From Acidithiobacillus ferruginosus (GTDB lineage Bacteria; Pseudomonadota; Gammaproteobacteria; Acidithiobacillales; Acidithiobacillaceae): 30,216 bases of DNA. The notes under the pieces are model-generated. The model saw only the letters and a program-made list of their open reading frames with translations, did no database searches and had not been told where the DNA came from. The position numbers were made by a program, and so were the translations under genes. The DNA lies in the NCBI RefSeq assembly GCF_018854495.1, contig NZ_JABBDR010000266.1, positions 1-30,216 of the forward strand, in the 5' to 3' direction. Shown here piece by piece: positions 1 to 16,222 of the stretch. Position 1 is the first letter of the stretch. Each line of letters begins with the position of its first letter.

Positions 1-603
1 CAGCGACTGTACCTGCGCATTGTGGGGCTGGAAACCCCAGACCAGGACGTTGCCGTTGGGTAACGCCATCTGGGGCAGGGGATACAGATCCATGCCCTGT
101 TCCAGGCGTTTCAGCAGGGAGACCGTCTGTTGCCCATCCTGGAATTTTATTCCCCCCGCGAATTTCTTCAGGGCCGCCTCGTCCAGAGGAGGGCGCAGAC
201 GATCTTCGATATCCGCTAAAGTCCTCGACCAATTCCCCATGACCTTGAGAACGCAGTCTCCGTTGTTGCCGCAGCCTTGGAGTTCCTTCTCATAGGTCTT
301 ATGGCTTTCGAGCAAAGCCTTGCATTGGGGTGTGCCTGCGCCGGCAGCACGCAAATCGCGGACGTAGCTGACGCCTACGGTAGTATCCAACATCCGGAGA
401 TCGTCGAGCCATACCCTGGGCTTGTAGTTGCAAATGGCATCCCGCAGCGGGGTAGTCAACGGTGGTTTGCAGCTGCGCGCATAGCTTTCTGGGGTTTGGG
501 CAGCGATGGCCGGGCAGTTGAAAGGTGTGTCTGCTGCGCTCGCGCTCCAACTGAAGGTTATGGCCATAAAAACGCCCATGCCAAAAATTAATTGTCGTGT
601 CAT
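1..603 (-). CDS. LprI-like secreted protein, partial (C-terminus beyond left edge)
   Basis: An open frame of 201 codons starts at the ATG at 603 and runs off the left edge without a stop. A GAGG ribosome-binding site lies just upstream. Residues 1-23 are a signal peptide ending in ASA. Residues about 52-137 resemble the LprI (lysozyme inhibitor) N-terminal domain: an AIC motif (Cys58), a Leu-Asp helix, a Tyr (Y80), then a second helical stretch with a C-x5-C pair (Cys111, Cys117). Further cysteines at 30, 45 and 94 could form extra disulfides, which fits a periplasmic or outer-membrane location. The remainder (about 140-201) is not recognised. It is the last visible gene of the Tad operon, 33 bases after the muramidase gene. 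The similarity is by eye and moderate; actual lysozyme inhibition is not shown. Confidence 0.75.
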   Translation of the reverse strand, partial: MTRQLIFGMGVFMAITFSWSASAADTPFNCPAIAAQTPESYARSCKPPLTTPLRDAICNYKPRVWLDDLRMLDTTVGVSYVRDLRAAGAGTPQCKALLESHKTYEKELQGCGNNGDCVLKVMGNWSRTLADIEDRLRPPLDEAALKKFAGGIKFQDGQQTVSLLKRLEQGMDLYPLPQMALPNGNVLVWGFQPHNAQVQSL

Positions 604-636
604 GTTATGCCTCATTAACTGTAGTAAAGTTAAACC

Positions 637-1881
637 TCACGCCCAACGGGGACGCCGCTGGCTTTCCCACCTTACAGAACGCTCGAATGCGACAGGTGTT
701 TTCTTGGGGGCACAGGGATCACCCTGTTTTGGCAGGGATTGATCCGTGATGGCATCGCGCAGGATTTGGGCGCGCGCCTGAAAACGGACTTTATATTGGG
801 TATATTTCCCGGTGGCAAGGGCCTCGAACTCCGCCGCGGCCCCCTCCCAGTCCGCCCGATAGAAATGTTGGGCGACGCTGGAAATATAGGACTGGTATTT
901 CATGTCGGTGAGGGTGGTCTGTATGGCACCAGGTAAAGCCCAGAAATTCATTTTTGGGTTGGCCTTCTTGTTGAAAAGTGCCGCTGCGTCTTCGGCATAA
1001 CCGTGTTTGACCGCCGAGGAAACAAAATCGGCTTCTGCCTTTTCCAGATATGGATATCTCTTATAATGTCCATAGTAGTCATTTAGTGCATTCACTGCCT
1101 TTTCTTTTTTTAAGCCAATGTATGGCTTTACCAGGGATAGTATATATTCTATATCGACGCTATCAGGCTTCCCGTATTTTTTCTCCTCTATTTCCATGTA
1201 GCGCCTTAGTGCGCCGATGGTTTGCTGCCCGAGATCCACACCTTCCCCTACCGTGACTCCACTGGCCGCCATGGCTCTTTGCGTGAGATCGCCGGTCTTT
1301 TTATTCTTTTGATATCGCGGTCCTAGATTTCTTCCCGTTTTGACATTGGCCTTGAATGCTCCCGGCACATAGAAGTCGAGCATGGCGCCTTCGCTCTTTT
1401 TTATAAAATCGTAGTCCACCCGATCCGTCGGCGAACATGCCGAGGTCGTTTCCCTGGGTTGCGTCTGGGGTGGCGCAGGTTTCGGCGTTGGAGTTGATTG
1501 TTCATAGATGGGGCTGTCGTCTCGTGGATAACAGACATGACTCTGCAGCAGTGCGAGGCGGTTTTCATAGGCGGCTTTGAGGCAGACAGCGTCGGTGCCA
1601 CAGGCATTTCTCTTCCGAAGCCATTCCTTTTGGCCTGTTCGCGTCTCGGCGACCAGATGGGTGTAATGCCCGGTGTCGGAGAAGACCTTGATGAATTTAC
1701 GGTAAACAATCGTCAGGTCGCGGTCCAAAAGGAGGAGTTTCTTGTCTCCGCAAATGGTCCACTCGGCAGACGTTGACGCCCGGCTGCAATCCATGGCGTC
1801 AGCATCTCCGGCCAACATGGCACCCACGGCCAGCGTCAGGACGTTTAAGGGAGAGACGACTGGAGGTCGGCGTCGCAGCAT
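637..1881 (-). CDS. LprI-domain / pesticin-type muramidase fusion, exported
   Basis: 414 residues from the ATG at 1881. That start has AGGAG six bases upstream and gives a proper signal peptide (RRR then a hydrophobic stretch, ending near residue 29); an in-frame start at 1962 would overlap the upstream gene and bury the signal. Residues 30-117 match the LprI family pattern: C32, EWTIC (C44), an LD helix, Y60, EWLRKRNAC (C94), C100. A Pro-rich linker follows (about 129-143). Residues 155-380 resemble the pesticin/T4-lysozyme-like muramidase fold: FIKKSEG supplies Glu164, and GVTVGEGVDLG supplies Thr210 and Asp216, with the same Thr-to-Asp spacing of six as in pesticin. The expected reaction is hydrolysis of the glycan strand of peptidoglycan in the periplasm. 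Its place after the pilus genes suggests wall remodelling for pilus assembly. The domain calls are by motif only. Confidence 0.8.
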   Translation of the reverse strand: MLRRRPPVVSPLNVLTLAVGAMLAGDADAMDCSRASTSAEWTICGDKKLLLLDRDLTIVYRKFIKVFSDTGHYTHLVAETRTGQKEWLRKRNACGTDAVCLKAAYENRLALLQSHVCYPRDDSPIYEQSTPTPKPAPPQTQPRETTSACSPTDRVDYDFIKKSEGAMLDFYVPGAFKANVKTGRNLGPRYQKNKKTGDLTQRAMAASGVTVGEGVDLGQQTIGALRRYMEIEEKKYGKPDSVDIEYILSLVKPYIGLKKEKAVNALNDYYGHYKRYPYLEKAEADFVSSAVKHGYAEDAAALFNKKANPKMNFWALPGAIQTTLTDMKYQSYISSVAQHFYRADWEGAAAEFEALATGKYTQYKVRFQARAQILRDAITDQSLPKQGDPCAPKKTPVAFERSVRWESQRRPRWA

Positions 1882-1915: not shown

Positions 1916-2848
1916 TTAGCGCGCACAAAATTCGGGATCTGGTGGCGGTGTATAGTCGCCAATGTCGGGGCCCGGTGTGGGCTCTGGGGACGGCAGGTTC
2001 CCCGTCGATCCGGGGTTATTGCTGTTTGCAGCCTGCCCCTGCGCTACACTCCGACTGCTCGGCAATCCCTCTGCCAGCACCGGGCTCTGCATGCGCATTA
2101 CCGCTTCAGCCTGCAGAGGGATACCCCAGCGGGTTTGACCATCCGCGCCCACCACCGGGCTCAGGCGGATCCCGAAGAGGGTGGGTAGTCCGATGTTATT
2201 CAAGCCGTTATTCAACCGGTAAAGTCCCCTGCCCAGTTGATCGATGAAGGGCACGATCAGGGGCTGGACGATGGTGATCTGTACCTTGAGCAGGTTTGCG
2301 TCCTGTACCGACAGCTTGCTGGCGGCGCCGACACTGGTTTGGCGGTAACCCAGATGATCTACGGGTATGGCTCTGACCCAGGTGCCGGAGGCATCGCGGG
2401 TCTGTTCGGCAAAATCGTCAAAGGCCTCGCGGGTAGGATTCAATATCCGGATCGATGCTTGTCCTGCAGCAACTTTGGCGATGGCGTAACCTTGGGTGAG
2501 GGCATGGAGATTCTGACCGTGGGTGTAGAGGGGCGTCAGACCGCGGGCGAGGGCGTCGCGCATGGAGGCGGCGCTGGCACTATGCAAGGTGCCGGCCCGC
2601 ACTGCCTCCTGAGTGGCGACTTCCAGTTGAGCGCGGGCCTGGTAGAGCAGGGCCCCTTGAAAAGTTCCAAGCAACGCCAACAGCAGTGCGGGTGTTGCGA
2701 TGGCGAATTCGACAGCGCTGGCGCCCTGTTCCCGGCTGAGAGCAAAGCCCTCTCGGGCTAGGTGCGAGGTTTTCGCCGGCGATATCGGATTGCACATGGT
2801 TCCGGATGGCGTCCAGAGGCGCAGCGTGTTTCGGAGCTTACACCTCAT
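1916..2848 (-). CDS. TadE-like pseudopilin / Flp assembly protein
   Basis: 310 residues. The ATG at 2848 has a strong GGAGGAGGT site and overlaps the end of tadA by 11 bases, so the two are translationally coupled. After a polar leader of about 42 residues comes G|ASAVEF followed by a hydrophobic helix (about 47-70). This is the class III prepilin pattern, with Gly42 before the cut and Glu at +5. The helix is followed by YQARAQLEVATQEAVRAG, typical of TadE-family proteins. The C-terminal half is periplasmic and ends in a Pro/Gly-rich tail. TadE-like pseudopilins are minor components needed for Flp fibre assembly and are cut by the TadV peptidase, which is not in this window. At 310 residues it is longer than a classical TadE (about 190), so a TadE/TadF/TadG-like label is the safe one. 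Confidence 0.85.
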   Translation of the reverse strand: MRCKLRNTLRLWTPSGTMCNPISPAKTSHLAREGFALSREQGASAVEFAIATPALLLALLGTFQGALLYQARAQLEVATQEAVRAGTLHSASAASMRDALARGLTPLYTHGQNLHALTQGYAIAKVAAGQASIRILNPTREAFDDFAEQTRDASGTWVRAIPVDHLGYRQTSVGAASKLSVQDANLLKVQITIVQPLIVPFIDQLGRGLYRLNNGLNNIGLPTLFGIRLSPVVGADGQTRWGIPLQAEAVMRMQSPVLAEGLPSSRSVAQGQAANSNNPGSTGNLPSPEPTPGPDIGDYTPPPDPEFCAR

Positions 2849-4580
2849 GATGTACCTCCTCCCGCCCGCGCAAAGTGTCTTCGGTCCGGAAGATAGATAA
2901 ATCTACTGGTAGACCACGCTCACGCATCGTCTCAAAAAATTCCGGTACCGCACCGGTTGCCCGAAAGACGCCCCGCACCGTGCCTTCGGCATCATAGCCC
3001 TGCTGCTTATAGGCGAATAGCTCCTGCAACTGGATGGTGCCGCTCTCGATGCCGGTTACCTCGCAGACGCTGGTCACCTTGCGCGAGCCGCAGGAAAAGC
3101 GCGTGATCTGAACGATAATGTCTACTGCTGAGGCGATCTGTTCCCGAATGGCGATAAGGGGGATGTCCATTCCCGCCATCAGCACCATGACTTCCAGACG
3201 GGACAGCATGTCCCGCGCCGTGTTGGCGTGAGCGGTGGTGAGGGAGCCGTCATGGCCCGTATTCATGGCCTGCAGCATATCCAGCGCTTCGCCGCCGCGA
3301 CATTCGCCCACTACCATGCGGTCAGGGCGCATGCGTAGGGCGTTGCGCACCAGTTCGCGGATGGAAATCTGGCCTTTTCCCTCCATGTTGGCTGGGCGCG
3401 CCTCCAGCGAGACCAGATTGGGCTGGTATAGGCGCAGTTCCGCCGCATCCTCAATGGTCACAATGCGTTCATGGTCGGGAATATAGTTGGAAAGTACATT
3501 GAGCAGGGTGGTTTTGCCGGAGCCGGTACCCCCGGAGATGATGATGTTTTTGCGTTGCTGCACACAGACCTGGATGAAATGGGCCATGCGCGCCGCAATG
3601 GAGTCGTAAGTTATCAAGTCTTCCATTTGTGGCCGTTTTTTGGAAAATTTGCGGATAGTGATGCACGCGCCTTTCAATGACAGCGGCGGAATGACGGCAT
3701 TAACGCGGGAACCATCGGACAGACGGGCATCCACCAGCGGTGCGCTTTCATCAATGCGCCGACCGATGGGCGCAACGATACGGTCGATGATGTGCCGCAC
3801 CGCCATCTCACTGCTAAATAGCGCCGGGGCGGCCAGCAATCTGCCTTGGCGCTCGATAAATACTTCGTCATATCGGTTCACCATGATTTCCGTAATGCTT
3901 TCATCCGCTAGAAAGTCTTCCAGCGGGCCAAGTCCGACGGCTTCATCCAGCACCTCTTTTACGAGACGCTGCCGGTCGAATTCCGGGGGCGAATTCATCC
4001 GCCACACGACTTCCCGCACCAACTCGCCGACGACACGGCGCAGATCCTCCGGCGATAGCGCACTGAGGTCGACACGTCGCAAATCCATCTGACTGCGCAC
4101 GGCTTCGTGGACCTCGCGCACCAATACCAGCCAGTGAGCGTCGTAAACGGGACGGATTGGCCAGGTAACTTCCTCGGTCAGCCGCTGGTTCCAATACGGT
4201 GATTGCTTAATAGCGGGCGCACCACCGGTTGGCTTGGTACCCGAAAGGGAAAGGTGGGCAGATTCCTCGGTGGATGCCGTCACGTTATCAAAGCGCGGCA
4301 TGATTTGCAGACGGTACCCGGCGATAAATATTTCGTCGTGCGCCTCCACCGGACCATAGGCTCGCATGCGTTCGCCGTTGACCAGCACTGCACCGAACCC
4401 TCCTAATCCTTCGATATAAACACCACCTTGTTCGGCGTAGATCCGCGCGTGTTCCTTGCCGACGTTCCAGCCCTCCATGCGCAGATGGGCATGTTCCGCC
4501 TTGCCAAGAAGACAAACGCCATCACTCGGTGATATGACCTGCGTGCCGATTTTGGGATGTGACACACGAACGGTAAACAT
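2838..4580 (-). CDS. tadA: TadA/CpaF secretion ATPase with N-terminal FHA-like domain
   Basis: 580 residues; AGGAGA precedes the ATG. Residues 150-560 are a type II/IV secretion ATPase of the TadA/CpaF family: Walker A GGTGSGKTT (350-358), Asp box VTIEDAAEL (374-382), Walker B region MRPDRMVVGECRGGE (417-431) and His box TGHDGSLTTAHAN (441-453). It powers Flp pilus assembly from the cytoplasmic face. Residues 1-95 form an added FHA-like domain (LLGKAEHAHL, VGKEHARIY, FGAVLVNGERM). The usual GR and SxxH positions read GK and GKEH, so phosphothreonine binding may be altered. A plain TadA is about 420-460 residues, which accounts for the extra length. It lies 10 bases after the secretin gene and overlaps the following tadE-like gene. 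The ATPase call is firm; the FHA call is good but degenerate. Confidence 0.95.
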   Translation of the reverse strand: MFTVRVSHPKIGTQVISPSDGVCLLGKAEHAHLRMEGWNVGKEHARIYAEQGGVYIEGLGGFGAVLVNGERMRAYGPVEAHDEIFIAGYRLQIMPRFDNVTASTEESAHLSLSGTKPTGGAPAIKQSPYWNQRLTEEVTWPIRPVYDAHWLVLVREVHEAVRSQMDLRRVDLSALSPEDLRRVVGELVREVVWRMNSPPEFDRQRLVKEVLDEAVGLGPLEDFLADESITEIMVNRYDEVFIERQGRLLAAPALFSSEMAVRHIIDRIVAPIGRRIDESAPLVDARLSDGSRVNAVIPPLSLKGACITIRKFSKKRPQMEDLITYDSIAARMAHFIQVCVQQRKNIIISGGTGSGKTTLLNVLSNYIPDHERIVTIEDAAELRLYQPNLVSLEARPANMEGKGQISIRELVRNALRMRPDRMVVGECRGGEALDMLQAMNTGHDGSLTTAHANTARDMLSRLEVMVLMAGMDIPLIAIREQIASAVDIIVQITRFSCGSRKVTSVCEVTGIESGTIQLQELFAYKQQGYDAEGTVRGVFRATGAVPEFFETMRERGLPVDLSIFRTEDTLRGREEVHHEV

Positions 4581-4590
4581 AGAGGTTCTC

Positions 4591-5946
4591 CTAGCGGATC
4601 AGCCCTTTTTCAGAACGCATCTTGTATAGGTTTTCCAGATAACGACCATGGGATTCCGCATCGATATTCTCTAGGGAATCAGCAGTGATCACCTTGGGTG
4701 TAACGAGAAAAACCAAATCTGACTCGTTGTTACGGAAATCGTCAGATTTAAATAGGTAGCCAAGAACAGGAATATTTCCGAGCCCTGGTATTTTGCTGCT
4801 ATTATTGGCCATGCTGTGATCTATTAATCCAGACATTACCAGTGTATCACCATCTTTCAGGTTGATTTCCTCTTGAGTCCTGGTAGTAAAAAATCCGGGT
4901 ACGCCACCAACGCTCAGTGCTGGGTCAATGTTACTTACCTCGGAGAATATCTTCAGGCTGATATTGTTTCTATCATCCGCAACCGGAGAAAATTTCAGGC
5001 GAATGCCAAAGTCCTTAAAAATGACAGATGTTTGCCCAAATCCAATGGCCAGGGGAATGGGGATCTGCCCGCCCGCCAGAAACTCTGCTGGCTCCTTACT
5101 GCCACTTTTGGCGCTGAGTTTGGGATTGGCAATTTCGTACGCATCACCGTTTTGAAGTGCGTAGTTGATGCGGGAAGCCACTGAGGCGATCATACCGAAA
5201 TTGGTCGCAAATGGAGCAACCTTGAGGGGAAGGTTTTGCACCCCTGAACTGGGGAAGGAAAAATTGGCAAGGGGGCCGCCAGTGCCGTTTGTAGATGGTA
5301 CATCCATGCGGAAGTATGGATTAGAACTGAAATCTCCGACGATGCCAGCTTGTGGTCCGGAAATGGATTGGTTCCAGTTAACTCCGAGACTACGGAAAAA
5401 ATCATTTTTCATCTTCAATATTTTTACATCCAGAAGCACCACTTTTTCCATTCGTATCGGTTCTTTCTCTGCGAGGTTGACTACATTTGAATAAATCGCC
5501 TTGAGTTTCTCTATTCTGTTTAGGGTTTCATCCGATAGATTCTTACCATCAATAATGACTTTGTCGCCGACCACCTTGACCTGTGTGTGGGCGCCATTTC
5601 CGAGTAAAGTAGATATTTCCTCGGCGGCGCGACCTACATCTTTTGGCGCGATGACGACTCGCGACGCGCTCTCGTCCCCATTTTTATACCAAAGGTGTAA
5701 ATTTGTTTCACCAGCCCCCTCAGCCAGAAGAAGTAATTCCTTGTTGTCAACCAGGGTAACGCTGAGTATCTTACCATTACCGACGGCGACTCGTTTCACG
5801 GTATTGGTAGGGATGATTTTTACCTGGCCAGCGTACATGGAAATATTAGATTGCTGCTCCAGACTGAGGATATCGCCAGCATAGGTCAGAGCGGGCAGAA
5901 TGCAGGTTGCTATGACCGCAGCCAGGGAGTTAGGGAGGTATTTCAT
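4591..5946 (-). CDS. cpaC: Tad pilus outer-membrane secretin (CpaC/RcpA)
   Basis: 451 residues with a signal peptide (about 1-23, ending TYA). Residues 33-105 form the pilus-secretin N-terminal domain (MYAGQVKIIPTNTVKRVAVGN, then LLLLAEGAGETNLHLW), followed by a BON-like stretch near 115-160. The secretin domain fills about 170-430: a VLLDVKILKMKNDFFRSLGVNW start, the central ALQNGDAYEIANPKLSAKSG block, and the end block DGDTLVMSGLI...KIPGLGNIPVLGYLFKS. Secretins assemble as multimeric gates that let the Flp fibre cross the outer membrane. Length is normal for CpaC/RcpA. The gene is visibly more AT-rich than its neighbours tadA and cpaB. A weak AGGA lies 11 bases before the ATG, 15 bases after cpaB, so coupling is likely. 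Confidence 0.95.
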   Translation of the reverse strand: MKYLPNSLAAVIATCILPALTYAGDILSLEQQSNISMYAGQVKIIPTNTVKRVAVGNGKILSVTLVDNKELLLLAEGAGETNLHLWYKNGDESASRVVIAPKDVGRAAEEISTLLGNGAHTQVKVVGDKVIIDGKNLSDETLNRIEKLKAIYSNVVNLAEKEPIRMEKVVLLDVKILKMKNDFFRSLGVNWNQSISGPQAGIVGDFSSNPYFRMDVPSTNGTGGPLANFSFPSSGVQNLPLKVAPFATNFGMIASVASRINYALQNGDAYEIANPKLSAKSGSKEPAEFLAGGQIPIPLAIGFGQTSVIFKDFGIRLKFSPVADDRNNISLKIFSEVSNIDPALSVGGVPGFFTTRTQEEINLKDGDTLVMSGLIDHSMANNSSKIPGLGNIPVLGYLFKSDDFRNNESDLVFLVTPKVITADSLENIDAESHGRYLENLYKMRSEKGLIR

Positions 5947-5961
5947 CGGAAAAATGTCCTG

Positions 5962-7008
5962 TCAAGGCTTGGGTAATGATGGTACATAAGGGAACGGCAG
6001 AGAGGTGACCTCGCGGTTCTGAGCCTTATTCCGCAGCGTCATATCCCCGCTCTCGGGGGTCGCGTATTGCGCCGCATCTCCGGCTGTTTGCACGTTACGG
6101 ATACTCGTGCTACCACCATTCGATGCGCCACCGACAATATATTCCACCCCAGCAGGCAGGGTGTGCGGATATCCGATAATATCGTGCAGCGATATCGCAT
6201 GTTTTGGCCAGGCACCAGTATTGTTGTTACCTCTTAAATCCAGGCGGATTTCCCCGCTTTTCTGAGCGACCAGGATTTTTTGCGCCTGCTGCGGTGTGAC
6301 TTCGAGGGTAATGGTGCCATAGCCTTCTGCTCCACCCGGGTTATTGGGGGACATCTCTCGCCCAGTCGCGAGGACTTTCAGGTTCTGCCCTAAAAATCGC
6401 ACCAAGGAGCCATCTGGCGCTGCAGGAGCGGTCTGCAGGTTGGTGATGATGCTTGCGGCTGCATTGGCGCGAACATCGGCTGGCGTGATCCACAGCATGT
6501 CGATGTGGTCTCCGGGACGAAGCATTTTGTTGATGGAGTTTTCCGAATTGACCGAAATCGTCAGGGCGATGTGATGAGCGTCGAGAATATCTGCTGGGCT
6601 GCCCACGTTGCTGAACATCGACATTGTCAGCGGTTTGCCGCCTTCTGCCGGAAACAGGAGTCTTTTGTTTTCAATTTTGTTGAAATCGGATTCCAGTATG
6701 ATCCCGGCCGGTGCGCTGTCGACCGGGATCCTTCGCCGCGCGACCATAGACCACGTGAGGATGGTATTCGCGGGCAGATTCTCGATCGGCACAACCGCGG
6801 CAACGGTGATTTCCTTTTTGGAAGACATTTCACTTAGCAGGCGCTGCTTCAAAGCGGACTCCTTGGCATGGAGGGTATGCACAGCAAGATACGCTGCGCC
6901 AAGCCCGGCCAGCACCGCGAATGCCAGGAGAATCCATCCGGTGATGGCGCGACTTTTCTTTTGCAGAATCGGCCGCATTACGGGATCAGGTTTAATCGGG
7001 GTCGACAT
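5962..7008 (-). CDS. cpaB: Tad pilus periplasmic protein CpaB/RcpC
   Basis: 348 residues. One N-terminal membrane segment (about 20-44, ITGWILLAFAVLAGLGAAYLA) follows a short cytoplasmic leader. Residues 68-130 are a SAF-type domain (VAAVVPIENLPANTILTWSMVARRRIP), and the RcpC/CpaB core includes NKMLRPGDHIDMLWIT and GTITLEVTPQQAQKILVAQKSGEIRL. CpaB/RcpC is a periplasmic partner of the secretin and is encoded directly before it here, as in most Tad loci. GAGGAAG lies upstream of the ATG and overlaps the stop of the small pilin gene in front. The C-terminal 60 residues are low-complexity and polar. Confidence 0.93.
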   Translation of the reverse strand: MSTPIKPDPVMRPILQKKSRAITGWILLAFAVLAGLGAAYLAVHTLHAKESALKQRLLSEMSSKKEITVAAVVPIENLPANTILTWSMVARRRIPVDSAPAGIILESDFNKIENKRLLFPAEGGKPLTMSMFSNVGSPADILDAHHIALTISVNSENSINKMLRPGDHIDMLWITPADVRANAAASIITNLQTAPAAPDGSLVRFLGQNLKVLATGREMSPNNPGGAEGYGTITLEVTPQQAQKILVAQKSGEIRLDLRGNNNTGAWPKHAISLHDIIGYPHTLPAGVEYIVGGASNGGSTSIRNVQTAGDAAQYATPESGDMTLRNKAQNREVTSLPFPYVPSLPKP

Positions 7009-7193: not shown

Positions 7194-7868
7194 CTAACGT
7201 TGATCCAGAACCACTACCAGACGGCTGTTATCGGTACCGTCTTCGCCAATTACAATGTCCAGATGGCGGTTCCCTTTATTCATGGAAATCACGGATGGGT
7301 TGTTGCGCATAGCCGGAGCCGGTTGCCATTGTTGTACCATTAATGCGTTTTTGAGCGTGCTGCGCAGTGTTCCGGCAGGACTGTCGGCACGTACATGCAA
7401 AACCCGCCCGTGAATGCCCGCGTCATTAGTCTCCACATCCTGCAACACGGAAGCGTTGGACGGTAACGGCAAATCGGCGGGTAGCGGGTCGCGCTCCATT
7501 TCTTGATCCATACGCAGACTGGAGAGGGTGCCATAGGCTGAATCGCCCTCCATGTGCCACTGGGTGGTCAACGAATAAGGTGGCGTAATGCACCCTTGAA
7601 CATGTTCATGGCGAAGTTGATTTTCTGTATAGGATCCGCCCAGTTTTGCGCACGCCTCTACAAAATAGGAGCGTAGCCGTTCTTCCTCCGCGCCCACATG
7701 AAATTGTACGGCACGCATATCCAAGCCGTTGATACGAAGGTGACTTGCCAGTGGTTCGGTGATTGCGTTGTCTGGAGGGGGCAGGAGTGGTCCCTTCTCA
7801 TCCGCCACGGCCAAAGTCGGGATGCTGAGAATCGCAAGGATACAGAACATGATCGATCGGATGTTCAT
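7194..7868 (-). CDS. Secreted protein of unknown function in Tad operon
   Basis: 224 residues with a signal peptide (1-22, ending AVA). GGAGG precedes the ATG. No family is recognised. The chain has two cysteines about 20 residues apart (in EACAKLGG and QGCITPP), which could form one disulfide, and a C-terminal beta-rich stretch (RHLDIVIGEDGTDNSRLVVVLD). It begins two bases after the stop of the TadE-like gene, so it is certainly part of the operon, and it is followed at once by the small pilin. A periplasmic accessory role in Flp assembly is inferred from position only. The predicted size and secretion would also suit a pilotin-like or minor-subunit chaperone, but nothing in the sequence proves that. 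Confidence 0.8.
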   Translation of the reverse strand: MNIRSIMFCILAILSIPTLAVADEKGPLLPPPDNAITEPLASHLRINGLDMRAVQFHVGAEEERLRSYFVEACAKLGGSYTENQLRHEHVQGCITPPYSLTTQWHMEGDSAYGTLSSLRMDQEMERDPLPADLPLPSNASVLQDVETNDAGIHGRVLHVRADSPAGTLRSTLKNALMVQQWQPAPAMRNNPSVISMNKGNRHLDIVIGEDGTDNSRLVVVLDQR

Positions 7869-7870
7869 GA

Positions 7871-8677
7871 TTATTTGCCTCCACTGGGATAAGGTCGCAG
7901 GCGGTCGCCATACTGCACTTCCGGATCGACATGCCCGAAATCCAGCCGTTTGAGTTCAGGAAAAAGGGTGCCTCCCACGGTTGGTACCGCTTTTATTGCC
8001 CCGTCATCCAGATATGCGGTTGGCAGGAGTTTTTTAACCATCCGCGCTTCCTCTGCCGGGCCGTTGGCCGTCCATGCATCCGTGAGTACGGCGGCCTGCG
8101 CGGTAAACAAGGGGCCGCTGGCGAGCGGAGTGTCCGGTAGATAGCGATACCCAGGCAGTCCTTCCAGTTGAACGTTGACGGTGGCGACTGTGGGTCCGGT
8201 CATGCGCAGCGGAATGTCCGTAATTTTCATGAGAGTTCCCAAAAAATTCATAGAAACTCCACTGGAGATGGGTTCCTCATGGGTAGCGACCTGGATATTG
8301 GTGAGATCACGTAACAAAGGCCGACCATCATGACGGGTCAGAATCGGGTCTATAATTGTTCCGTTCCCGGTGTTGGCTAACGCCATACCGTGTTGCCCGA
8401 AAAATCTCACGGCCGCCTCATCCCGCAGATCGGCATCCGGTTTAATGGCCACCCACCCCCGTCCCTGCGGTGGCTGACTGCGCCACACCGTGCGCTCCCA
8501 TGCCACGTAGCGTGCCGCTTCGATAGTCCGTAGCTGGGTGAAGCTCCATTTCCCGGTGTAGATCACCAGAAAAAAAAGCGGAATAAGCGCGAACGCAGCC
8601 ACCACAGCGAACTCGGTAAGGGATTGACCGCGTTCGTTGCAGGTATGTGGTAGGCTTATGAGTGACTGATATGTCAT
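7871..8677 (-). CDS. TadE-like pseudopilin
   Basis: 268 residues. A 17-residue leader ends at CNERG|QSLTEF, followed by a hydrophobic helix (about 22-42, AVVAAFALIPLFFLVIYTG). This is the class III prepilin signal (Gly17; Glu at +5), and the downstream RTIEAARYVAWERTVW segment is typical of TadE-like proteins. It is expected to be cleaved by a TadV-type peptidase and to act as a minor pilin with the other TadE-like protein of the operon. No clear ribosome-binding site precedes the ATG, which lies 8 bases after the stop of the preceding gene, so translation may rely on re-initiation. The C-terminal domain is not recognised beyond the family. Confidence 0.85.
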   Translation of the reverse strand: MTYQSLISLPHTCNERGQSLTEFAVVAAFALIPLFFLVIYTGKWSFTQLRTIEAARYVAWERTVWRSQPPQGRGWVAIKPDADLRDEAAVRFFGQHGMALANTGNGTIIDPILTRHDGRPLLRDLTNIQVATHEEPISSGVSMNFLGTLMKITDIPLRMTGPTVATVNVQLEGLPGYRYLPDTPLASGPLFTAQAAVLTDAWTANGPAEEARMVKKLLPTAYLDDGAIKAVPTVGGTLFPELKRLDFGHVDPEVQYGDRLRPYPSGGK

Positions 8678-8685
8678 ATTTTTGA

Positions 8686-9594
8686 TTATTGGTTCATAGG
8701 AATTCCGCTGACGGCGGTGTCCAGTCCGCGGATGGGTTTTAGTGGGGCATCTAGCGGGGTCAAGGAAATCTCATATATGTTTACGACCGTTATTTTACCA
8801 GACTTTTGTAAATAGTTTTTTAAATTATCGATCATTGGTGTATATTTGGTTAGTTTTTCTGGGTGGCTAATGTATGCGGCGGGCATAGCTTCAGCGGTCG
8901 CGCCGGCAACAGCTATCGCTGCGCGGCCTTTATTTGAAAATATAGCTGATCTATAATTTTGGTCATGAGGATAACTGGGAAGTTTTATTTCATCGTATCC
9001 GTATTTTTGTAGATTTTTTCGCGCGAGAGAGATGGCTTCGTCTGCTAAACCGCTAGTGATGCTGGCATAAAGATGGTAAAAATATGTCACAGACTTTATC
9101 TTTTTAGTGGACTTGACCTTTGCCACGCAGGAGATAACGTGCCATTTGCTGGTATGGGCTGGCGCATTCACTGAAGTACTCCTGATGATGATAGGAGAGA
9201 GTGCCGGAGGATTGGGAATCCATCGGCATCCTTCTGGCAACTTTAAATCACGTTCCCAGTCCGTTATCGCTGGGTTTGTATAGTCTGTAATGAATTTTCT
9301 GAAATGGTTCAAACCGGCAACGATAACATCGTACTCAGGAACATCTCCATTTTTCGTGAAGTCGCCCGGCGCATTGGCGTAGTCCCCCGCTTCACGTAAT
9401 GTTTCTAATTTTTCGTCCAAAGTGGTACCGATCTGGCCCGAGCGAATCTTCGCGCTTAACGCAGGGTTCGCATGGGGCGAATCCGGAACCTGTTCCGTCA
9501 CCTTTTCCGCATCGGCGTAGGTGGTGAGGGTGAGGCTGGCCACTGCCATGCTGATTTGCAGACCGATGCGAATTACATTTCTATCTTTGATCAT
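8686..9594 (-). CDS. Secreted protein of unknown function, AT-rich
   Basis: 302 residues. GAGGACAATCC precedes the ATG, and residues 1-29 look like a signal peptide (ends YADA). No family is recognised. Features seen: a Pro-rich part around LKLPEGCRWIPNPPALSP, two cysteines (in GCRW and ISCVAK) possibly joined, and a Lys-rich middle section. The middle of the gene (about 8780-9320) is clearly more AT-rich than the adjoining tadG and tadE genes, with many AAA and TAT codons, which suggests a different origin. It lies 14 bases after tadG and 8 before the tadE-like gene. An exported accessory role in the pilus system is inferred from position only. Confidence 0.78.
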   Translation of the reverse strand: MIKDRNVIRIGLQISMAVASLTLTTYADAEKVTEQVPDSPHANPALSAKIRSGQIGTTLDEKLETLREAGDYANAPGDFTKNGDVPEYDVIVAGLNHFRKFITDYTNPAITDWERDLKLPEGCRWIPNPPALSPIIIRSTSVNAPAHTSKWHVISCVAKVKSTKKIKSVTYFYHLYASITSGLADEAISLARKNLQKYGYDEIKLPSYPHDQNYRSAIFSNKGRAAIAVAGATAEAMPAAYISHPEKLTKYTPMIDNLKNYLQKSGKITVVNIYEISLTPLDAPLKPIRGLDTAVSGIPMNQ

Positions 9595-9608: not shown

Positions 9609-11216
9609 TTAGTGCAGACCGAGCATGGTGGCGTATTGCATGCGGTCAGCCGCATCTAAGTCGACGAGACGGGCTTCCCAGAAGGGGCTGAACAGGTTGC
9701 CTCTTTCGTAGAATCGGTCGTTTCGTTGCCAGATTGGCGCAGGACGACGGAAGTAGGCCTGTGCTTTTGCAACGGCGCGTACCTGACCTTCTGGCGCCTT
9801 TTGCGGCAAGACCAAGTTGATATCCTGGCGGGATGGCATTTGATTGATGCGCAGGGCGTTTGCTGCATCCCGAACACTTCCCCGTGCATGCTCCACGACC
9901 ACCGTGTAAAAAGGCATGATGTCTGACGGATCGCCGTTGGCATCCACGAGTTTTTGGTTGCGACGATTGAAGTCCCAGTAACGGGTAATCCCACCCGCTG
10001 CCGCGCGACTACTATCAGCGCCGGGGCGTTTAAGTAGTGTGCTGCCCACGCCGTTCTGGTCGTCCGGGTACAGACTGGCGGAGATGCGAGAGGCGCCGGG
10101 ATTGGCATCCCAGGAATTTTGATAGGCGGGTAAAAGCACGTTGCGGTCATTGGCGGAAAAGCGCACTTGCGGTTGTGCCCGGGTTTCGGTGTAGTTGCTG
10201 GGGTATGGAAAATTGTCATTACCCGTCTGAGAGGCACCGTAACCTAAAGGTACTTCGGACCATTTTTTCCCGCCAAAAAATCCCGCTTCCCTCTGCCAGA
10301 AGTGAAAAGAGAGCGTATCCATCCCAGACCAGACATAACGACCATCTCCGTTGGGAGCTAACTGCGTTCCGCCTGCACGGCGAAATTCCCACCCAAAAGC
10401 CCATAAATTTTGTGAGCCAAAGAGACGCAACGGTGTCGGCAAATCATTCCGAGCCGCCGTAAACCCATCCCGTGAGGCGTTGATCATATAAGCCATGCGT
10501 GCCTGTGCTCTATTCTTATCTCCTCCCCAACGCTGGATAAGGTCGCTACGATTTTTGAAATACTGCCCAAGATTGCTTGCTAAAAGAATGGCGTTTAATC
10601 TGGCATCCGGATCATTGATTTTGATTATCTGTTCAGCTACAGCGGTCATCGCGCCTCCTGGTTTGCTGTTGTCTGTTCCGGGATCGAAAGCGCCGTTGGA
10701 TAGATGATAGATTTCTTGCGCACCGCTAAGTGCGGCATCGGCGATATCCAGAGCGGGAAGAGCCACCTTGGCAGCGTTGGAAACGCTTTGATCTAGCAGG
10801 ATTGCGGCTTTGGCAATACTGTTGGTAATCATCATGATTGCCTGACCAACGTAAGGTATGAAAGAGGCAATTGTGCCGACTCTCTGAATGTTCAGGCCAA
10901 GACTTTTTACATAATGTGCCCACGAAACCAGGCTGATGCTTTGTCCGATGGCCACCTGATTGGCAATCATTGCACGGTTGGTGTAGGAGATAAAATTGAG
11001 TTCTCGTGCTTCCATCTGCATGGCGGAGAAAGCGGCGGCATCGGCGGCATTCTGGGTTTTCAGTTTGACGGCGGATAGTTGCCCGGTGTTGAATACGAAG
11101 AGTGCCGCCAATAACACTACGGGAATCAGAAGGGCAGAGAATAACGCGGCCTGTCCGGATTCTGCATGCTTTACTGCGGCAGGAGAATCGCCTCGTGATC
11201 GAAGAAAAGGAAACAC
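9609..11216 (-). CDS. TadG-like Flp pilus assembly protein
   Basis: 535 residues, starting at a GTG (11214-11216) with GGGGAGA upstream. The N-terminal part AESG|QAALFSALLIPVVLLAALFVFNTGQLSAVKLKTQNAADAAAFSA is the TadG/TadE-like pattern: one membrane anchor (about 24-46) followed by the AADAAA motif. Unlike the pilins of this operon there is no Glu at +5 (Phe instead), so it is probably anchored and not cleaved. The long periplasmic part contains hydrophobic helices near 115-145 and aromatic-rich sections (WAFGWEFRRAGG, SFHFWQREAGFFGG). TadG-like proteins are thought to link the pilus machine to the envelope. No von Willebrand-type metal site is obvious. It follows the pilin gene after a 94-base gap with a hairpin. 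Confidence 0.85.
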   Translation of the reverse strand: MFPFLRSRGDSPAAVKHAESGQAALFSALLIPVVLLAALFVFNTGQLSAVKLKTQNAADAAAFSAMQMEARELNFISYTNRAMIANQVAIGQSISLVSWAHYVKSLGLNIQRVGTIASFIPYVGQAIMMITNSIAKAAILLDQSVSNAAKVALPALDIADAALSGAQEIYHLSNGAFDPGTDNSKPGGAMTAVAEQIIKINDPDARLNAILLASNLGQYFKNRSDLIQRWGGDKNRAQARMAYMINASRDGFTAARNDLPTPLRLFGSQNLWAFGWEFRRAGGTQLAPNGDGRYVWSGMDTLSFHFWQREAGFFGGKKWSEVPLGYGASQTGNDNFPYPSNYTETRAQPQVRFSANDRNVLLPAYQNSWDANPGASRISASLYPDDQNGVGSTLLKRPGADSSRAAAGGITRYWDFNRRNQKLVDANGDPSDIMPFYTVVVEHARGSVRDAANALRINQMPSRQDINLVLPQKAPEGQVRAVAKAQAYFRRPAPIWQRNDRFYERGNLFSPFWEARLVDLDAADRMQYATMLGLH

Positions 11217-11310: not shown

Positions 11311-11589
11311 TTACTTACCCATATCTGATTTGTAATCGCTCATGTTCTTCTGCTTGCCCGCGTTGTTTGTCGCCTCTCCGGCGGTACCTTGGGCTAATCC
11401 AATCTCGGAGTCTGCCTTTTTACCAGATAATTCCTGAGATATTCCTGCCATCTGATGACGCAAGGTCTGACCGAAGAACGAATATACGGCAATACCGGTG
11501 ATAGCGATAAGAGCGACGATAATCAGATATTCTGTCATGCCTTGGCCGCATTCCGTCTGAAATGTTGGAGTAGCGAGGTTTGGTTTCAT
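11311..11589 (-). CDS. flp: Flp pilin, major subunit candidate
   Basis: 92 residues; AGGAGA lies upstream of the ATG. The leader ends at ECG|QGMTEY (cut after Gly15, Glu and Tyr at +5/+6 of the mature protein), followed by a hydrophobic helix LIIVALIAITGIAVYSFFG. This is the defining Flp pilin motif. The mature chain of 77 residues is longer than canonical Flp (about 50), with a polar, Gln/Lys/Gly-rich tail. As the first gene of the operon, ahead of a stable hairpin, it is the natural candidate for the major fibre subunit. Cleavage would need a TadV-type peptidase encoded elsewhere. Confidence 0.93.
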   Translation of the reverse strand: MKPNLATPTFQTECGQGMTEYLIIVALIAITGIAVYSFFGQTLRHQMAGISQELSGKKADSEIGLAQGTAGEATNNAGKQKNMSDYKSDMGK

Positions 11590-11973: not shown

Positions 11974-13128
11974 TCAGTTACCAAATACGCCCTGGATCAG
12001 GTTGCGGACGCCCTGCTGTATCTGATAGCTGGTTTCGCTGCGAGCAGTATCCAAGGCATTAGTCGCCAGTGCGGCGCCGGGGATGTCGGTGGTAACAGGT
12101 GCTATGGTTTGGGGCGGCGGCACATGTGTGGGCCGGAGTCCAACGGTGGTGCCGGGAGTCAGCTCGACTACTTCGACCCTACGATTTTTTGCCCGGCCGT
12201 CGTCGGTGCTGTTGGATGCCACAGGACGTGAGGCCCCGTATCCGGTGACCTCAATACGCCGACCCTCTATACCTTGCGCTGTCAACGCTGATTTTACGGC
12301 TAGAGCGCGATTCAGCGACAGCTGCTGGTTATAGGTGGCGGTGCCCACCAGATCGGTATGCCCGTCCAGGCGTACCCGCAGGGAAGAATGCTGCTGCATA
12401 AGCTGAAACAACGCCATGATGGTGGGTTGGGCATCCGCGCGCAAGGTCGCCTGGTTGAAATCGAAGGGCAGGTGCATGGTGAAGCGACCACGTTGAGCCA
12501 AGGCGTCGGCCATGCCCGCACTGGTCAATGGTCCGGCATCGCTGCTGACCACACCGCCTTGCATGGGTCTGGTTTGCACCGAATACACTGAGGCTATCTG
12601 GGAGTGTCCAAACAACGTGTTGTCATTAATGAAAATCAGCGTACGTACGCCATCGGTGGCGTGATGCTCGGCGGTCAGCATCCTGCCGTTTTCAAACAAA
12701 AAGTTCTCTACATTCCCCTGGTAATTGGTTGGAGCGCCGCGCCACAGGAGTGTGTTTACGGGGGCGTCGTTGTTGGTTCTACAGCCAAGGTTGGCACATT
12801 GCCACAGGATCTGAAACCCTGCGTGCCGCAGGGCCTGTTGATAGTTGCGGATGAATTCCAGGGGGGAACGGTCTTCGGGTACGTTGTAACGAATGTACGT
12901 CACCTGACCCTCTACGGTCTCTGAACGGGTCAAACCATTTTTGCCCAACGGGCCGAGAGGAACGGTGATCTCGTCATAATGGGTGGTTTTGTAACCGTCA
13001 ATGACGCTGCCAGGGTAACGTCCCAGATAGGGCAAATCCTGTCCCGGTTCGTCCAGTGCAAGGGCGGGGTCGGTGAATAAGAGCGGTATCAGGCCGAGCC
13101 GCAGGATAAACGTGCGCATGCTTTTCAC
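11974..13128 (-). CDS. OmpA-family peptidoglycan-binding protein with DUF4892-like N-terminus
   Basis: 384 residues with a signal peptide (about 1-25). Residues 30-185 resemble the DUF4892 domain found before OmpA domains: DLPYLGRYPGSVIDGY, RYNVPEDRSPLEFIRNYQQAL, and Cys111/Cys116 in QCANLGC. Residues 216-322 are the OmpA C-terminal domain: FDFNQATL, LDGHTDLVG (Asp255, Asp259), the YNQQLSLNRALAV helix, VTGYGASRP and KNRRVEV, which together bind diaminopimelate of peptidoglycan. It should tether the outer membrane or a surface complex to the cell wall. Its ATG overlaps the luxR stop as ATGA, and a terminator follows it. Lying between the two halves of the Tad system, it may anchor the pilus secretin; that is inference. 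Confidence 0.88.
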   Translation of the reverse strand: MKSMRTFILRLGLIPLLFTDPALALDEPGQDLPYLGRYPGSVIDGYKTTHYDEITVPLGPLGKNGLTRSETVEGQVTYIRYNVPEDRSPLEFIRNYQQALRHAGFQILWQCANLGCRTNNDAPVNTLLWRGAPTNYQGNVENFLFENGRMLTAEHHATDGVRTLIFINDNTLFGHSQIASVYSVQTRPMQGGVVSSDAGPLTSAGMADALAQRGRFTMHLPFDFNQATLRADAQPTIMALFQLMQQHSSLRVRLDGHTDLVGTATYNQQLSLNRALAVKSALTAQGIEGRRIEVTGYGASRPVASNSTDDGRAKNRRVEVVELTPGTTVGLRPTHVPPPQTIAPVTTDIPGAALATNALDTARSETSYQIQQGVRNLIQGVFGN

Positions 13129-13814
13129 TCCGATGGTGACAATTGGTTCGGGAACGATCGTTTGCCGCCAGATCTTTTGTTTTCGATGGTTTTGAGCAGG
13201 CGGGCCAGGAGCATCCTCCGGTTAGGCACCCCGTGCCGTCTGCACATGACGGCGATCCGGGAGCGGATGGTGCTTTCACTTTGGCCAATTTGGGCCGCAA
13301 TCTCATTCTGACCGATTCCCTCCACGAGCATTTGGGCAATACGTAAGTCCGTCGGAGTGAGTTCCGGGTGAAAAGGTTCTTTGGTTTCGAGGGAAGTGTA
13401 GAGAATTAGTAACTCTGCCTGGATATCCCTCAGTTCCGTATGGCTCAGTTCTCTGGTGATCTCCAGGTGGCATAACGCGATCTGCGTGGGCGTGAGGTTG
13501 CAGAGGATACTCATGGCCAGTTGCGAGGACGTAGTGATGCAGTAGGGGTGTGGATTCCCGGCTATGGCCTCGCGCTGCGCCCGGACGATCAATTCCCGGG
13601 GCAGGGCAGGCCAGCGTCCGGCGGGATAGCGCCACCAGGAAGTCGTCTGCCAGCCTTTGCAATGACGGTGCAGGCGATAGACCTTGATTTGTCGGAACCA
13701 GCCCTGCTCTCGCCATCCTCTGGCGATATCCGTGGGTGATCTTCCCAATGCGTAGCATTTCAGTGCAGGGCCCGTGCCGCACGCCGCCGGTTGGGCCAGT
13801 AGGTTCAGCCACAT
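13125..13814 (-). CDS. LuxR-family transcriptional regulator
   Basis: 229 residues; GGAGGGAG precedes the ATG. Residues about 152-210 are a LuxR/FixJ-type DNA-binding domain: LTPTDLRIAQMLVEGIGQNEIAAQIGQSESTIRSRIAVMCRRHGV. The N-terminal 150 residues are rich in Trp, Cys and His and show neither a receiver domain (no phospho-acceptor Asp set) nor a clear acyl-homoserine-lactone pocket, so the signal it senses is unknown. It is co-transcribed with the ompA-like gene (ATGA overlap) and faces tadB across an AT-rich intergenic region. It is the obvious candidate regulator of the pilus genes. The DNA-binding call is firm; the target is inferred. Confidence 0.88.
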   Translation of the reverse strand: MWLNLLAQPAACGTGPALKCYALGRSPTDIARGWREQGWFRQIKVYRLHRHCKGWQTTSWWRYPAGRWPALPRELIVRAQREAIAGNPHPYCITTSSQLAMSILCNLTPTQIALCHLEITRELSHTELRDIQAELLILYTSLETKEPFHPELTPTDLRIAQMLVEGIGQNEIAAQIGQSESTIRSRIAVMCRRHGVPNRRMLLARLLKTIENKRSGGKRSFPNQLSPSE

Positions 13815-13885: not shown

Positions 13886-14145
13886 TATGTACTGAAGCGG
13901 CTCACTATAATGGCTATTGTGAAGCTATTATTTTTGATTTGCTGTTAAAATAATAAACAAATACAGTGAAATATAATTTATAGTACGTGATTGTTGAATA
14001 TCTGTTGCTGATCTGTGAATTGTGTTTTAATGCAGAAAACACAATAGCGCCCGGGGTAATGGGCGGAAACTGGCGTAACATACACGATACTGGTGCGATT
14101 TCGTTGGGAATCGGTAATCGGATCGAAAAAGGGGTGGAGGAGCGG
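13886..14145. promoter_or_regulatory. AT-rich luxR/tadB intergenic region, tadB upstream part
   Basis: No supported gene lies here. The stretch is much richer in A and T than the flanking genes. Perfect TATAAT hexamers occur on the plus strand at 13896-13901 and 13972-13977, neither with a good -35 at standard spacing, which would fit an activated promoter for tadBC. The leader before tadB would then be 160-240 bases. Frames continuing upstream of the chosen tadB start have no ribosome-binding site. Confidence 0.4.
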
Positions 14146-14997
14146 ATGGTAGACCAAAATGTACTTGGTATTCTGGTGTTCGCTGCGGTGGCCGGATTTG
14201 TTTTTGTGGCTCTGGAGGCAACCCGACAGGCCTTGATGAAGGGACGCGCGATCTTCGCCCGCGATGGGCAGGTCAGGTTGGCGGAGTTGTTCATCTTTGC
14301 GGACCCTGATCTGTTGTGGAAGCTGAACGTGGCGCTGGTGCTGATTTTACCGATCACAGCTTGGCTGTTGCTGGGTTCGCCGGTGTTGGTCATTGCAGCG
14401 GCCACCCTCGCCGCATTGTTGCCGCGTTTTGTGTTGCGCTGGTTGCGGAAGCAGCGTTTGGATCGTCTGCATGTCCAACTGCCGGACGCGCTCATGATGC
14501 TGGCCAGCAGCTTGCGCGGTGGTGCCAATTTGCAGCAAGCCATGGAGGGGCTTTCCCGCGATCTGAGCCCGCCCATCAGTCAGGAGCTGGCTCTGGTGGT
14601 GCGGGAGCAACGTCTGGGAGTTGCCTTTGAGGACGCTATCGACCATCTGGCGCGACGGGTACCGTCACGGGATGTGCAACTCGTATCCTCGGCGCTGCGC
14701 ATCAGCCGAGAGGTGGGGGGCAATCTTGCCGAAACGGTGGCGCGACTGGGAAATACCATCCGCAAACGATTGATGATGGAGCAGAAGATTCAAGCACTGA
14801 CGGCACAAGGCCGCCTTCAGGGTATGGTGATGACCGCACTACCGGCTTTGATTGTTTTTGCACTCCTGCAGATCGAGCCGCAGGCTATGGGTGCGCTGTT
14901 CAATACGATACAGGGCTGGGCAGTGCTTGCCATCGCCATCCTGTTTGAAGTGCTCGGCTATTTCTGGATTCGAAAAATCGTGAGTATCGAAGTATGA
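14146..14997 (+). CDS. tadB: Tad inner-membrane platform protein TadB
   Basis: 283 residues from the ATG at 14146, which has GGAGGAG directly upstream; the frame is open back to 13987, but that extension has no ribosome-binding site and an unlikely composition. One N-terminal membrane helix, a pair near 60-90, and a C-terminal pair (GMVMTALPALIVFALLQ and GWAVLAIAILFEVLGYFWI) frame a T2SSF domain (RLHVQLPDALMMLASSLRGGANLQQAMEGLS, DHLARRVPSRDVQLVSSALRISREVGGNLAETV). TadB and TadC form the inner-membrane base on which the TadA ATPase works. Its stop overlaps the tadC start as ATGA. Confidence 0.94.
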   Translation: MVDQNVLGILVFAAVAGFVFVALEATRQALMKGRAIFARDGQVRLAELFIFADPDLLWKLNVALVLILPITAWLLLGSPVLVIAAATLAALLPRFVLRWLRKQRLDRLHVQLPDALMMLASSLRGGANLQQAMEGLSRDLSPPISQELALVVREQRLGVAFEDAIDHLARRVPSRDVQLVSSALRISREVGGNLAETVARLGNTIRKRLMMEQKIQALTAQGRLQGMVMTALPALIVFALLQIEPQAMGALFNTIQGWAVLAIAILFEVLGYFWIRKIVSIEV

Positions 14998-15875
14998 GTA
15001 CGCCATGGACACTGTTAGTAGCCCTCGTCACCGGGATTTCCATCGGGCTTTTGATCTATGCGCTGGGTTTGCTGGTGCGGCAGATGGAGCCTTCACTGAG
15101 GGATTATATGGACCCCCTGCCAAAGGGGTTACGCCTGTTCTGGCCCCTTGTGCAATTCATCCGGTCCACGGTGATTATTTTTATTCCCGACCGCCTTCTG
15201 CTGCGTATCCACCAGCGATTACAGCGAGCGGGCGTTAATTATATGCTCAATGCTGGAGAGTTCGTGGCGCTCAAATGGATCGGCACTATGGTCCCGTTGG
15301 TTTCGATCTTTTTATTCTACATGGCGTTAGGATTTTTCAATATCTGGCTGAGCCTGCTGGCCGTGTTTATCGGCAGTTTTTATCCCGATCTGTGGCTTGT
15401 GGAGCAATCCCGGCGGCGGGGGCGGCTGATTCTGAAGGAGTTACCCGTTTATCTCGATTTTATCACCCTGATGATCGAGGGCGGGCTGAATTTGACTGGT
15501 GCCATGCAGGTGGCGGTGGATAAGGGGCCCCCCGGTCCGTTGCGTAATGAGTTCAGTGTCATGATCCGCGATTTGCGCGCGGGGACATCGAAGACGGATA
15601 TTTTCCGGCGCTTGGGCGAGCGAGTTCCGTTGCCGGAGGTCCGGAGTCTGGTCAGTGCGCTGATTCAGTCGGAAGATCGGGGTGGTGATCTGGGGCCAGC
15701 GTTGCGGGCGCAGGCGGAACAGCGGCGCGAAGAGCGTTTCCTGCGCGCCGAAAAAATGGCGCTGGAGGCGCCGGTCAAGTTGCTGGCGCCACTGCTCGCC
15801 TTCATTTTTCCTATCACCTTTTTAATGCTAGCTTTTGTCATCTACATGAAGTTTCTTCAGGAAGGCGGCTTTTGA
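14994..15875 (+). CDS. tadC: Tad inner-membrane platform protein TadC
   Basis: 293 residues; ATGA overlap with tadB indicates coupled translation. Membrane helices lie near residues 6-27, 95-125 and at the C-terminus (LLAPLLAFIFPITFLMLAFVIYM). The T2SSF domain sits between: ELPVYLDFITLMIEGGLNLTGAMQVAV and LGERVPLPEVRSLVSALIQSEDRGGDLGPALRAQAEQRREER, the typical TadC pattern. It partners TadB in the pilus motor platform. The length is normal. The stop is embedded in the TTG start of the next gene. Confidence 0.94.
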   Translation: MSTPWTLLVALVTGISIGLLIYALGLLVRQMEPSLRDYMDPLPKGLRLFWPLVQFIRSTVIIFIPDRLLLRIHQRLQRAGVNYMLNAGEFVALKWIGTMVPLVSIFLFYMALGFFNIWLSLLAVFIGSFYPDLWLVEQSRRRGRLILKELPVYLDFITLMIEGGLNLTGAMQVAVDKGPPGPLRNEFSVMIRDLRAGTSKTDIFRRLGERVPLPEVRSLVSALIQSEDRGGDLGPALRAQAEQRREERFLRAEKMALEAPVKLLAPLLAFIFPITFLMLAFVIYMKFLQEGGF

Positions 15876-16222
15876 CACAACAAGGCGTAGTTGGTCGGGG
15901 TGATCAGGTGCTCTGGTCCGAGGTGCGGATGGCGGCCAGTTTTCTCGACCGTTTGCAGGGTTTGCTGGGCAAGGCCGGGCTCTCTGATCAGCAAGGGTTG
16001 TTGTTGACGGCCTGTGGGAGTATACACACCGCGGGTATGCGGTTCCCCATCGATATCATTTTCCTGGATGCCGATCTGAAGGTGTTGGCGTGCCATTCGC
16101 GTGTTAGGCCATGGCAGCTCAAATCCTGCCGGGGCGCCCGCATGACGCTGGAGGTGGCGGCAGGCGGCATTGAACGTCATGGGGTGCTTTCGGGACAGCG
16201 TCTGACGTGGCGGGCTGCATAA
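15872..16222 (+). CDS. DUF192 family protein
   Basis: 116 residues starting at a TTG that overlaps the tadC stop (TTGA), with AGGAAGG six bases upstream. The body matches DUF192: FLDRLQGLLGKAGLSDQQGLLLTACGSIHTAGMRFPIDIIFLDADLKVL, ending ARMTLEVAAGGIERHGV. DUF192 proteins are small beta-folds of unknown biochemical role; a cysteine and an IHTxGM motif are conserved. No signal peptide is seen, so it is probably cytoplasmic. Coupling to tadC is notable, and DUF192 genes have been seen near Tad loci in other proteobacteria. The family call is firm; the function is unknown. Confidence 0.85.
   Translation: MTQQGVVGRGDQVLWSEVRMAASFLDRLQGLLGKAGLSDQQGLLLTACGSIHTAGMRFPIDIIFLDADLKVLACHSRVRPWQLKSCRGARMTLEVAAGGIERHGVLSGQRLTWRAA

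Follow-up and report, generated by a model that had tools for sequence, protein, structure and literature searches.

Tad pili are widespread and are mostly seen as adhesins. In a 30,216-nt stretch of Acidithiobacillus ferruginosus DNA (contig NZ_JABBDR010000266.1; the whole stretch is referred to as the window), the minor pilin gene tadE of a Tad locus is directly followed by a gene for a predicted exported muramidase with an LprI-like and a pesticin-type domain (hereafter the effector), and this gene by another, lprB. We propose that the effector and lprB constitute an antibacterial effector-immunity pair and that the Tad pilus would take the effector to neighbouring cells; to this reading we assign a probability of about 0.6. 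All of the evidence is comparative and comes from genes and predicted proteins; it supports the pairing of effector and lprB well, and delivery by the pilus is what we infer.

Exchange of C-terminal domains together with the downstream gene

The catalytic half of the effector matched the pesticin-type muramidase family PF16754 above its curated cut-off (48.8 versus 25.8 bits), and its predicted structure has the pesticin/T4-lysozyme fold. Glu164, Thr210 and Asp216 were invariant in 30/30 sequences and, judging from their order, their spacing and PDB titles, are probably equivalent to E178, T201 and D207 of pesticin. These results confirmed an earlier note on this DNA, which had described at 637-1881 a protein whose N-terminal LprI-type part is joined through a Pro-rich linker to a pesticin-like muramidase domain, and had named the three catalytic residues and the expected fold; its further observation that the gene belongs to a Tad operon also held, as detailed below. 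We use the label “LprI-like” because the N-domain of the window protein scores below the curated cut-off of PF07007 (LprI/DUF1311; 18.8 versus 22 bits). Relatives of this domain scored 25.3 and 38.9 bits, and the wider family of effector N-domains is homologous to DUF1311 (family profile against 3gi7, E 0.0011).

All 18 pesticin-type effectors that carry an LprI-like domain and are uninterrupted have an lprB gene directly 3′, a count that excludes the interrupted effector of genome G004 and a repeat (L138). The lprB product, with 205 residues in the window and about 325 in relatives, consists of a diverged LprI-like N-domain, held in common with the effector at a probability of 97%, and a C-terminal domain outside recognised families. 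In G004 (L029:9820-12362), the effector gene is split by about 1.3 kb of inserted DNA, and the lprB behind it remains whole.

Comparison of 17 copies (19 pairs, from which G021b, without an LprI domain, and G022b, with its LprI domain split over two frames, were dropped) revealed that the effector C-domain co-varies with the downstream gene (Spearman rho 0.87; partial rho given the N-domain 0.87; permutation p 2e-4), while the N-domain does not follow that gene (rho 0.14, p 0.13); because the pairs are related and not independent, the correlations are inflated and the p values are guides only, which has to be held against our proposal. Individual copies displayed the same pattern in both directions. 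The second effector copy of the source genome (contig C298) shares 93% identity with the window copy in the N-domain, 29% in the C-domain and 22% in the next gene, whereas the corresponding values were 40%, 88% and 79% for A. sulfuriphilus CJ-2 and 39%, 83% and 75% for strain YTS05, all next-gene identities referring to the 205-residue part of lprB present in the window. At the DNA level, the two source-genome copies are 90% identical over 420 nt, from 42 nt before the ATG to approximately codon 124, and beyond this point, in the linker, no DNA match between them was found. We read this as recombination in the linker, which would move the C-domain together with the downstream gene. A constant N-part with exchanged C-domains and an adjacent gene co-varying with the C-domain are features of polymorphic toxins; when C-domain and next gene are replaced as a unit and the N-domain stays the same, as here, the pattern marks a polymorphic effector-immunity pair.

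Cargo other than the pesticin-type domain also occurs behind this N-domain. Three proteins carry phage-lysozyme domains behind it (L034, L036 and L044; 78 to 100 bits), a fourth carries a lipase-like domain (L035; Lipase_3 21.5 bits, just under the cut-off of 22), and in L037 it stands before a tail outside assigned families that by eye resembles thioredoxin. At the latter locus (G011, L037:7514-10429), the place behind tadE is taken not by an LprI muramidase but by a protein of 375 aa that has no confident family assignment, followed by an lprB relative and the LprI protein with the thioredoxin-like tail.

These data bear on the mechanism advanced in the earlier note, in which the N-domain acts as the inhibitor of its own enzyme. 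In such a scheme the gene product would be a housekeeping muramidase, kept inactive by its LprI domain, that opens the wall of the producer for the pilus; its position in a Tad operon fits this idea, as does the general observation that space-making wall hydrolases accompany many envelope machines. We consider this explanation highly unlikely. The N-domain is uncoupled from the enzyme, heads lipase-like and other unrelated C-termini, and stayed 93% identical while the muramidase was exchanged; whole domains are swapped jointly with the next gene, and four of the family genomes that have an FHA-type TadA lack the gene at that place. Because the N-domain takes no account of the enzyme behind it, we rate self-restraint as less likely, and the candidate inhibitor would be lprB, whose sequence follows the muramidase domain; weak inhibition in cis by the N-domain may nevertheless occur. 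The accompanying premise that LprI proteins inhibit lysozymes is disputed: in the part available of one report the LprI-domain protein ScwA of Salmonella conferred no lysozyme resistance, the authors crediting the MliC domain of the Mycobacterium tuberculosis protein instead (PMC7933661). LprI proteins are presumed to be immunity factors of some type VI secretion system (T6SS) effectors, according to the available part of another report (PMC12135965).

Co-variation of lprB with the C-domain would also be expected if lprB were a dedicated chaperone or export partner matched to that domain rather than an immunity protein, and the LprI-like domain common to lprB and the effector fits such a role. 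No inhibitor homology of lprB was recognisable by sequence, and a sequence-profile comparison with the lysozyme inhibitor Ivy gave an hhalign probability of only 0.1%; this speaks for a chaperone and against immunity. We regard the chaperone explanation as improbable all the same, and continue with lprB as the candidate immunity gene.

Linkage of effector cassettes to tadE

TadA proteins resembling that of the window over their full length, including the FHA region, were found in 18 of 29 genomes of the family Acidithiobacillaceae, and a partial one lies at a contig end in G008. After removal of four of these 19 genomes whose contigs end too early (G003, G013, G024 and G027), an LprI effector stands behind tadE in 11 of the 15 with readable downstream DNA. 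An alternative count by locus (14/19 tadE genes with more than 1 kb of room behind them) is biased, as many loci were fetched for their effector. Across the family, FHA-type TadA and lprB occurred together in 16 genomes, TadA only in 3, lprB only in 2 and neither in 8 (Fisher p 0.0013, uncorrected for kinship).

The history of the cassettes points in the same direction. Two tadE-effector-lprB units stand in a row in G017 and G022, and the two TadE proteins of G022 are identical (304/304). A tadE fragment abuts the second effector copy of the source genome just upstream, which indicates that this copy derives from a tadE cassette. Protein record P0035 (A. sulfuriphilus) joins in one frame a part like TadE residues 1-117 (85%) to a following part like effector residues 111-407 (94%); as the effector part starts at about residue 111, most of the LprI domain is missing from the fusion.

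The main alternative is that effector and lprB are a toxin-immunity pair whose Sec-exported muramidase leaves the cell in vesicles, by lysis or through another secretion system, with tadE serving only as an insertion hot spot. Several observations weigh against our proposal, and three of them (the cassettes apart from tad genes, the situation in G017 and the missing co-variation with TadE) also favour this alternative. In 6 of the 29 genomes (G000, G003, G004, G005, G008 and G010) there are effector cassettes for which the fetched stretch shows no recognised tad genes; those of G000, the source genome, and G008 lie on contigs that begin just upstream. The lipase-like protein of G017 is likewise without recognised tad genes in its fetched stretch. 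G017 has two cassettes beside tadB and tadC, yet no related TadA was found there, and the lprB relative of G014 comes with neither FHA-type TadA nor effector. Conversely, no LprI effector stands behind tadE in G004, G010 and G011, neither a recognised tadE nor an LprI effector was found in the Tad locus of G018, and two more distant FHA-type loci (G002:C106 and G010:C82) have no LprI effector. Finally, the LprI-like domain and TadE showed no co-variation beyond the TadA background (partial 0.30, p 0.07; 0.12, p 0.31), so that docking of the LprI domain on TadE is unsupported.

Against an insertion hot spot stand the duplication of tadE together with the cassette in G022, the tadE remnant in the source genome, the fusion of TadE to the muramidase in P0035 and, elsewhere, to Rhs and HINT toxin modules (see below), and the association of lprB with FHA-type TadA. 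The T6SS marker VipB/TssC (PF05943) was detected in 0 of the 29 family genomes, 23 of which have a completeness of 90% or more and a contamination of 5% or less, and an Escherichia coli control was positive. Taking both sides together, we judge export by another route unlikely and retain delivery by the Tad pilus as our reading.

Minor observations concern further copies of these genes. Behind an RcpA-like gene on a different contig of the source genome (L220:12784-14558, G000:C115) lies a further TadE relative, and no tadA was recognised on that contig. Four effector cassettes at a distance from recognised tad genes (L027, L028, L029 and L040) are each preceded, at 109 bases, by an LprI-only gene of 150 aa, which may be left over from an older domain swap. 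Locus L041 (G010:C163, 779-4314) encodes in a row a pesticin-type protein, a weak lprB relative, a class 3 lipase-like protein and an ankyrin-repeat protein, possibly a second effector array.

TadE as a candidate mount for toxins

Outside the family we examined 19 related tadE loci in two sets of nine and ten, the second from a search that scored at most six candidates per genome and may have missed some. In four of them, one frame encodes TadE joined to a toxin module: Rhs with a Tle1-like phospholipase in G113 (1909 aa) and G084 (1883 aa), Rhs in G065 (1799 aa), and a pretoxin-HINT module in G072 (730 aa). At a fifth locus (G429), the gene next to tadE encodes an Rhs protein of 1583 aa. The fusions of G065 and G072 lie inside the tad locus, those of G113 and G084 on another contig. 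In G072, the product of the next gene on the same strand after TadE-HINT matches SUKH-1 (67 bits), a family of known immunity proteins. An FHA domain above cut-off (28 to 62 bits) was present in all eight TadA proteins tested from outside the family, among which each of the five genomes with a toxin module at tadE is represented. In G072, an FHA-domain protein is also encoded between DUF192 and the TadE-HINT toxin (L174:5223-6776), recalling the FHA proteins noted for Kil clusters.

To be set against this, no Rhs or HINT toxin was recognised fused to or right after tadE in the other 14 of the 19 loci. Three of these (L176, L177 and L212) end within 428 bases; the next gene encodes a lytic transglycosylase in L213 and an OmpA-like protein in three loci, and the rest have ordinary or unassigned genes. 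Among the matches listed for weaker TadE relatives, no open frame exceeded 665 aa.

A possible order of events is as follows. The effector would be taken to the periplasm by Sec, where lprB would bind and block its muramidase domain, protecting the producing cell and its sister cells. Current annotation makes the LprI domain a lysozyme inhibitor; its candidate role here would differ, that of a carrier or adaptor and not of a brake, and TadE at the pilus tip would load the effector, in cis elsewhere and in trans in the window organism. On contact, with the ATPase perhaps passing on the signal through its FHA domain, the pilus would bring the muramidase into the periplasm of a rival, where glycan strands would be cut, and non-kin without a matching lprB would lyse.

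More tentatively, and with odds that we put somewhat short of even, FHA-type Tad pili in general may be devices for contact-triggered toxin delivery in which TadE is the mount for polymorphic toxins. As parts of this same tentative proposal, the cargo in cis would be TadE-Rhs-phospholipase, TadE-HINT-toxin and TadE-muramidase, and the cargo in trans would be Sec-exported muramidase, lysozyme or lipase, attached through the LprI adaptor and accompanied by a matching periplasmic immunity protein.

Several known systems resemble parts of this arrangement. Pesticin, which enters cells via an outer-membrane receptor, and VgrG3cp, reportedly a pesticin-like T6SS effector riding on VgrG, also have a C-terminal pesticin-type muramidase domain, whereas in the window protein this domain is combined with a predicted signal peptide and an LprI-like domain. 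As in polymorphic toxin systems such as contact-dependent inhibition, Rhs and T6SS effectors, a constant N-part precedes an exchangeable C-terminal domain, with a matching immunity gene downstream (here the candidate lprB) and orphan copies; the difference is that the constant parts here are the LprI-like domain and the minor pilin TadE. With LprI/DUF1311 proteins the effector has in common an N-domain with conserved cysteines and helices; the members described in the available parts of two reports (PMC12135965, PMC7933661) are separate proteins, whereas here the domain heads the effector and lprB. In a 2012 survey of polymorphic toxins and their trafficking modes, a whole-word search of the first 300,000 characters gave no occurrence of TadE, Tad, pilus, pilin, LprI or DUF1311 (PMC3482391), and among the matches listed from the open-licence literature there was no paper on a Tad- or TadE-linked effector-immunity pair or an LprI-pesticin arrangement.

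A further system of this kind is Kil of Myxococcus xanthus, a Tad-like system for contact-dependent killing with an FHA-fused ATPase, KilF. The accessible part of the 2021 paper left open whether Kil secretes toxins, and which, and stated that the toxin “remains to be discovered” (PMC8460266). In the part available of a 2025 paper, minor pilin tips with variable domains act in combinations against different prey, and the tips are suggested to deliver effectors, Tip4 possibly carrying or bringing toxic activity, so that toxin delivery by Tad tips is already in print as an idea (PMC12075869). Both machines are of Tad type with an N-terminal FHA domain on the ATPase, and by that feature only is the window system Kil-like; no effector-immunity pair is described for Kil in these parts of the two papers (PMC8460266, PMC12075869), whereas toxin modules and candidate immunity genes stand at tadE here.

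If the more tentative proposal is correct, FHA-type Tad pili would be a separate delivery route for polymorphic toxins, and the loci would hint at what the toxins of Kil look like. Toxin modules, candidate immunity genes and a minor pilin occur here together, in a family in whose genomes no T6SS marker was found, and the natural domain swaps are evidence for conflict. For a direct test of Tad toxin delivery, the loci also offer defined genes, cis-fusions and both cognate and non-cognate pairs.

The Tad locus of the window

The features of the locus are collected in Table 1. Tad loci of the family contain relatives (27 to 95% identity) of the conserved protein encoded between rcpC/cpaB and the second TadE-like gene.

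Table 1 Features of the Tad locus and of the effector cassette in the window.
Feature	Coordinates	Strand	Remarks
lprB, candidate immunity gene directly downstream of the effector	1..615	-	truncated by contig end
Effector candidate, 414 aa	637..1881	-	predicted signal peptide, LprI-like domain, Pro-rich linker, pesticin-type muramidase domain
Pesticin-type muramidase domain, residues 148-390	712..1440	-	contains E164, T210 and D216
Linker, residues 119-147	1441..1527	-	predicted local distance difference test (pLDDT) <50
LprI/DUF1311-like helical N-domain, residues 30-118	1528..1794	-	Cys 32, 44, 94 and 100 conserved at least 90%
tadE, minor pilin directly upstream of the effector	1916..2848	-	
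tadA, assembly ATPase	2838..4580	-	N-terminal FHA domain, residues 24-82; 21.2 versus cut-off 20.7 bits
rcpA, secretin	4591..5946	-	
rcpC/cpaB	5962..7008	-	
Conserved protein	7194..7868	-	no Pfam or NCBIfam family above cut-off
Second TadE-like minor pilin	7871..8677	-	17.7 bits, under cut-off
Protein in Tad locus	8686..9594	-	no Pfam or NCBIfam family above cut-off
tadG-like	9609..11216	-	PF13400
Flp-like pilin	11311..11589	-	PF04964 under cut-off, 18.1 versus 32.2 bits
OmpA-domain protein	11974..13128	-	
LuxR-type (GerE) regulator	13125..13814	-	
tadB (T2SSF)	13987..14997	+	
tadC (T2SSF)	14994..15875	+	
DUF192 gene	15872..16222	+	

A DUF192 gene adjoins tadC in most of the related Tad loci examined, inside and outside the family, and in strain YTS05 (L026) it is duplicated along with tadE. 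Further along the window, at 24462-26713, a small group of genes that by eye resembles an arsenic resistance set was noted (an arsenate reductase-like protein, an ArsR-like protein and a membrane transporter).
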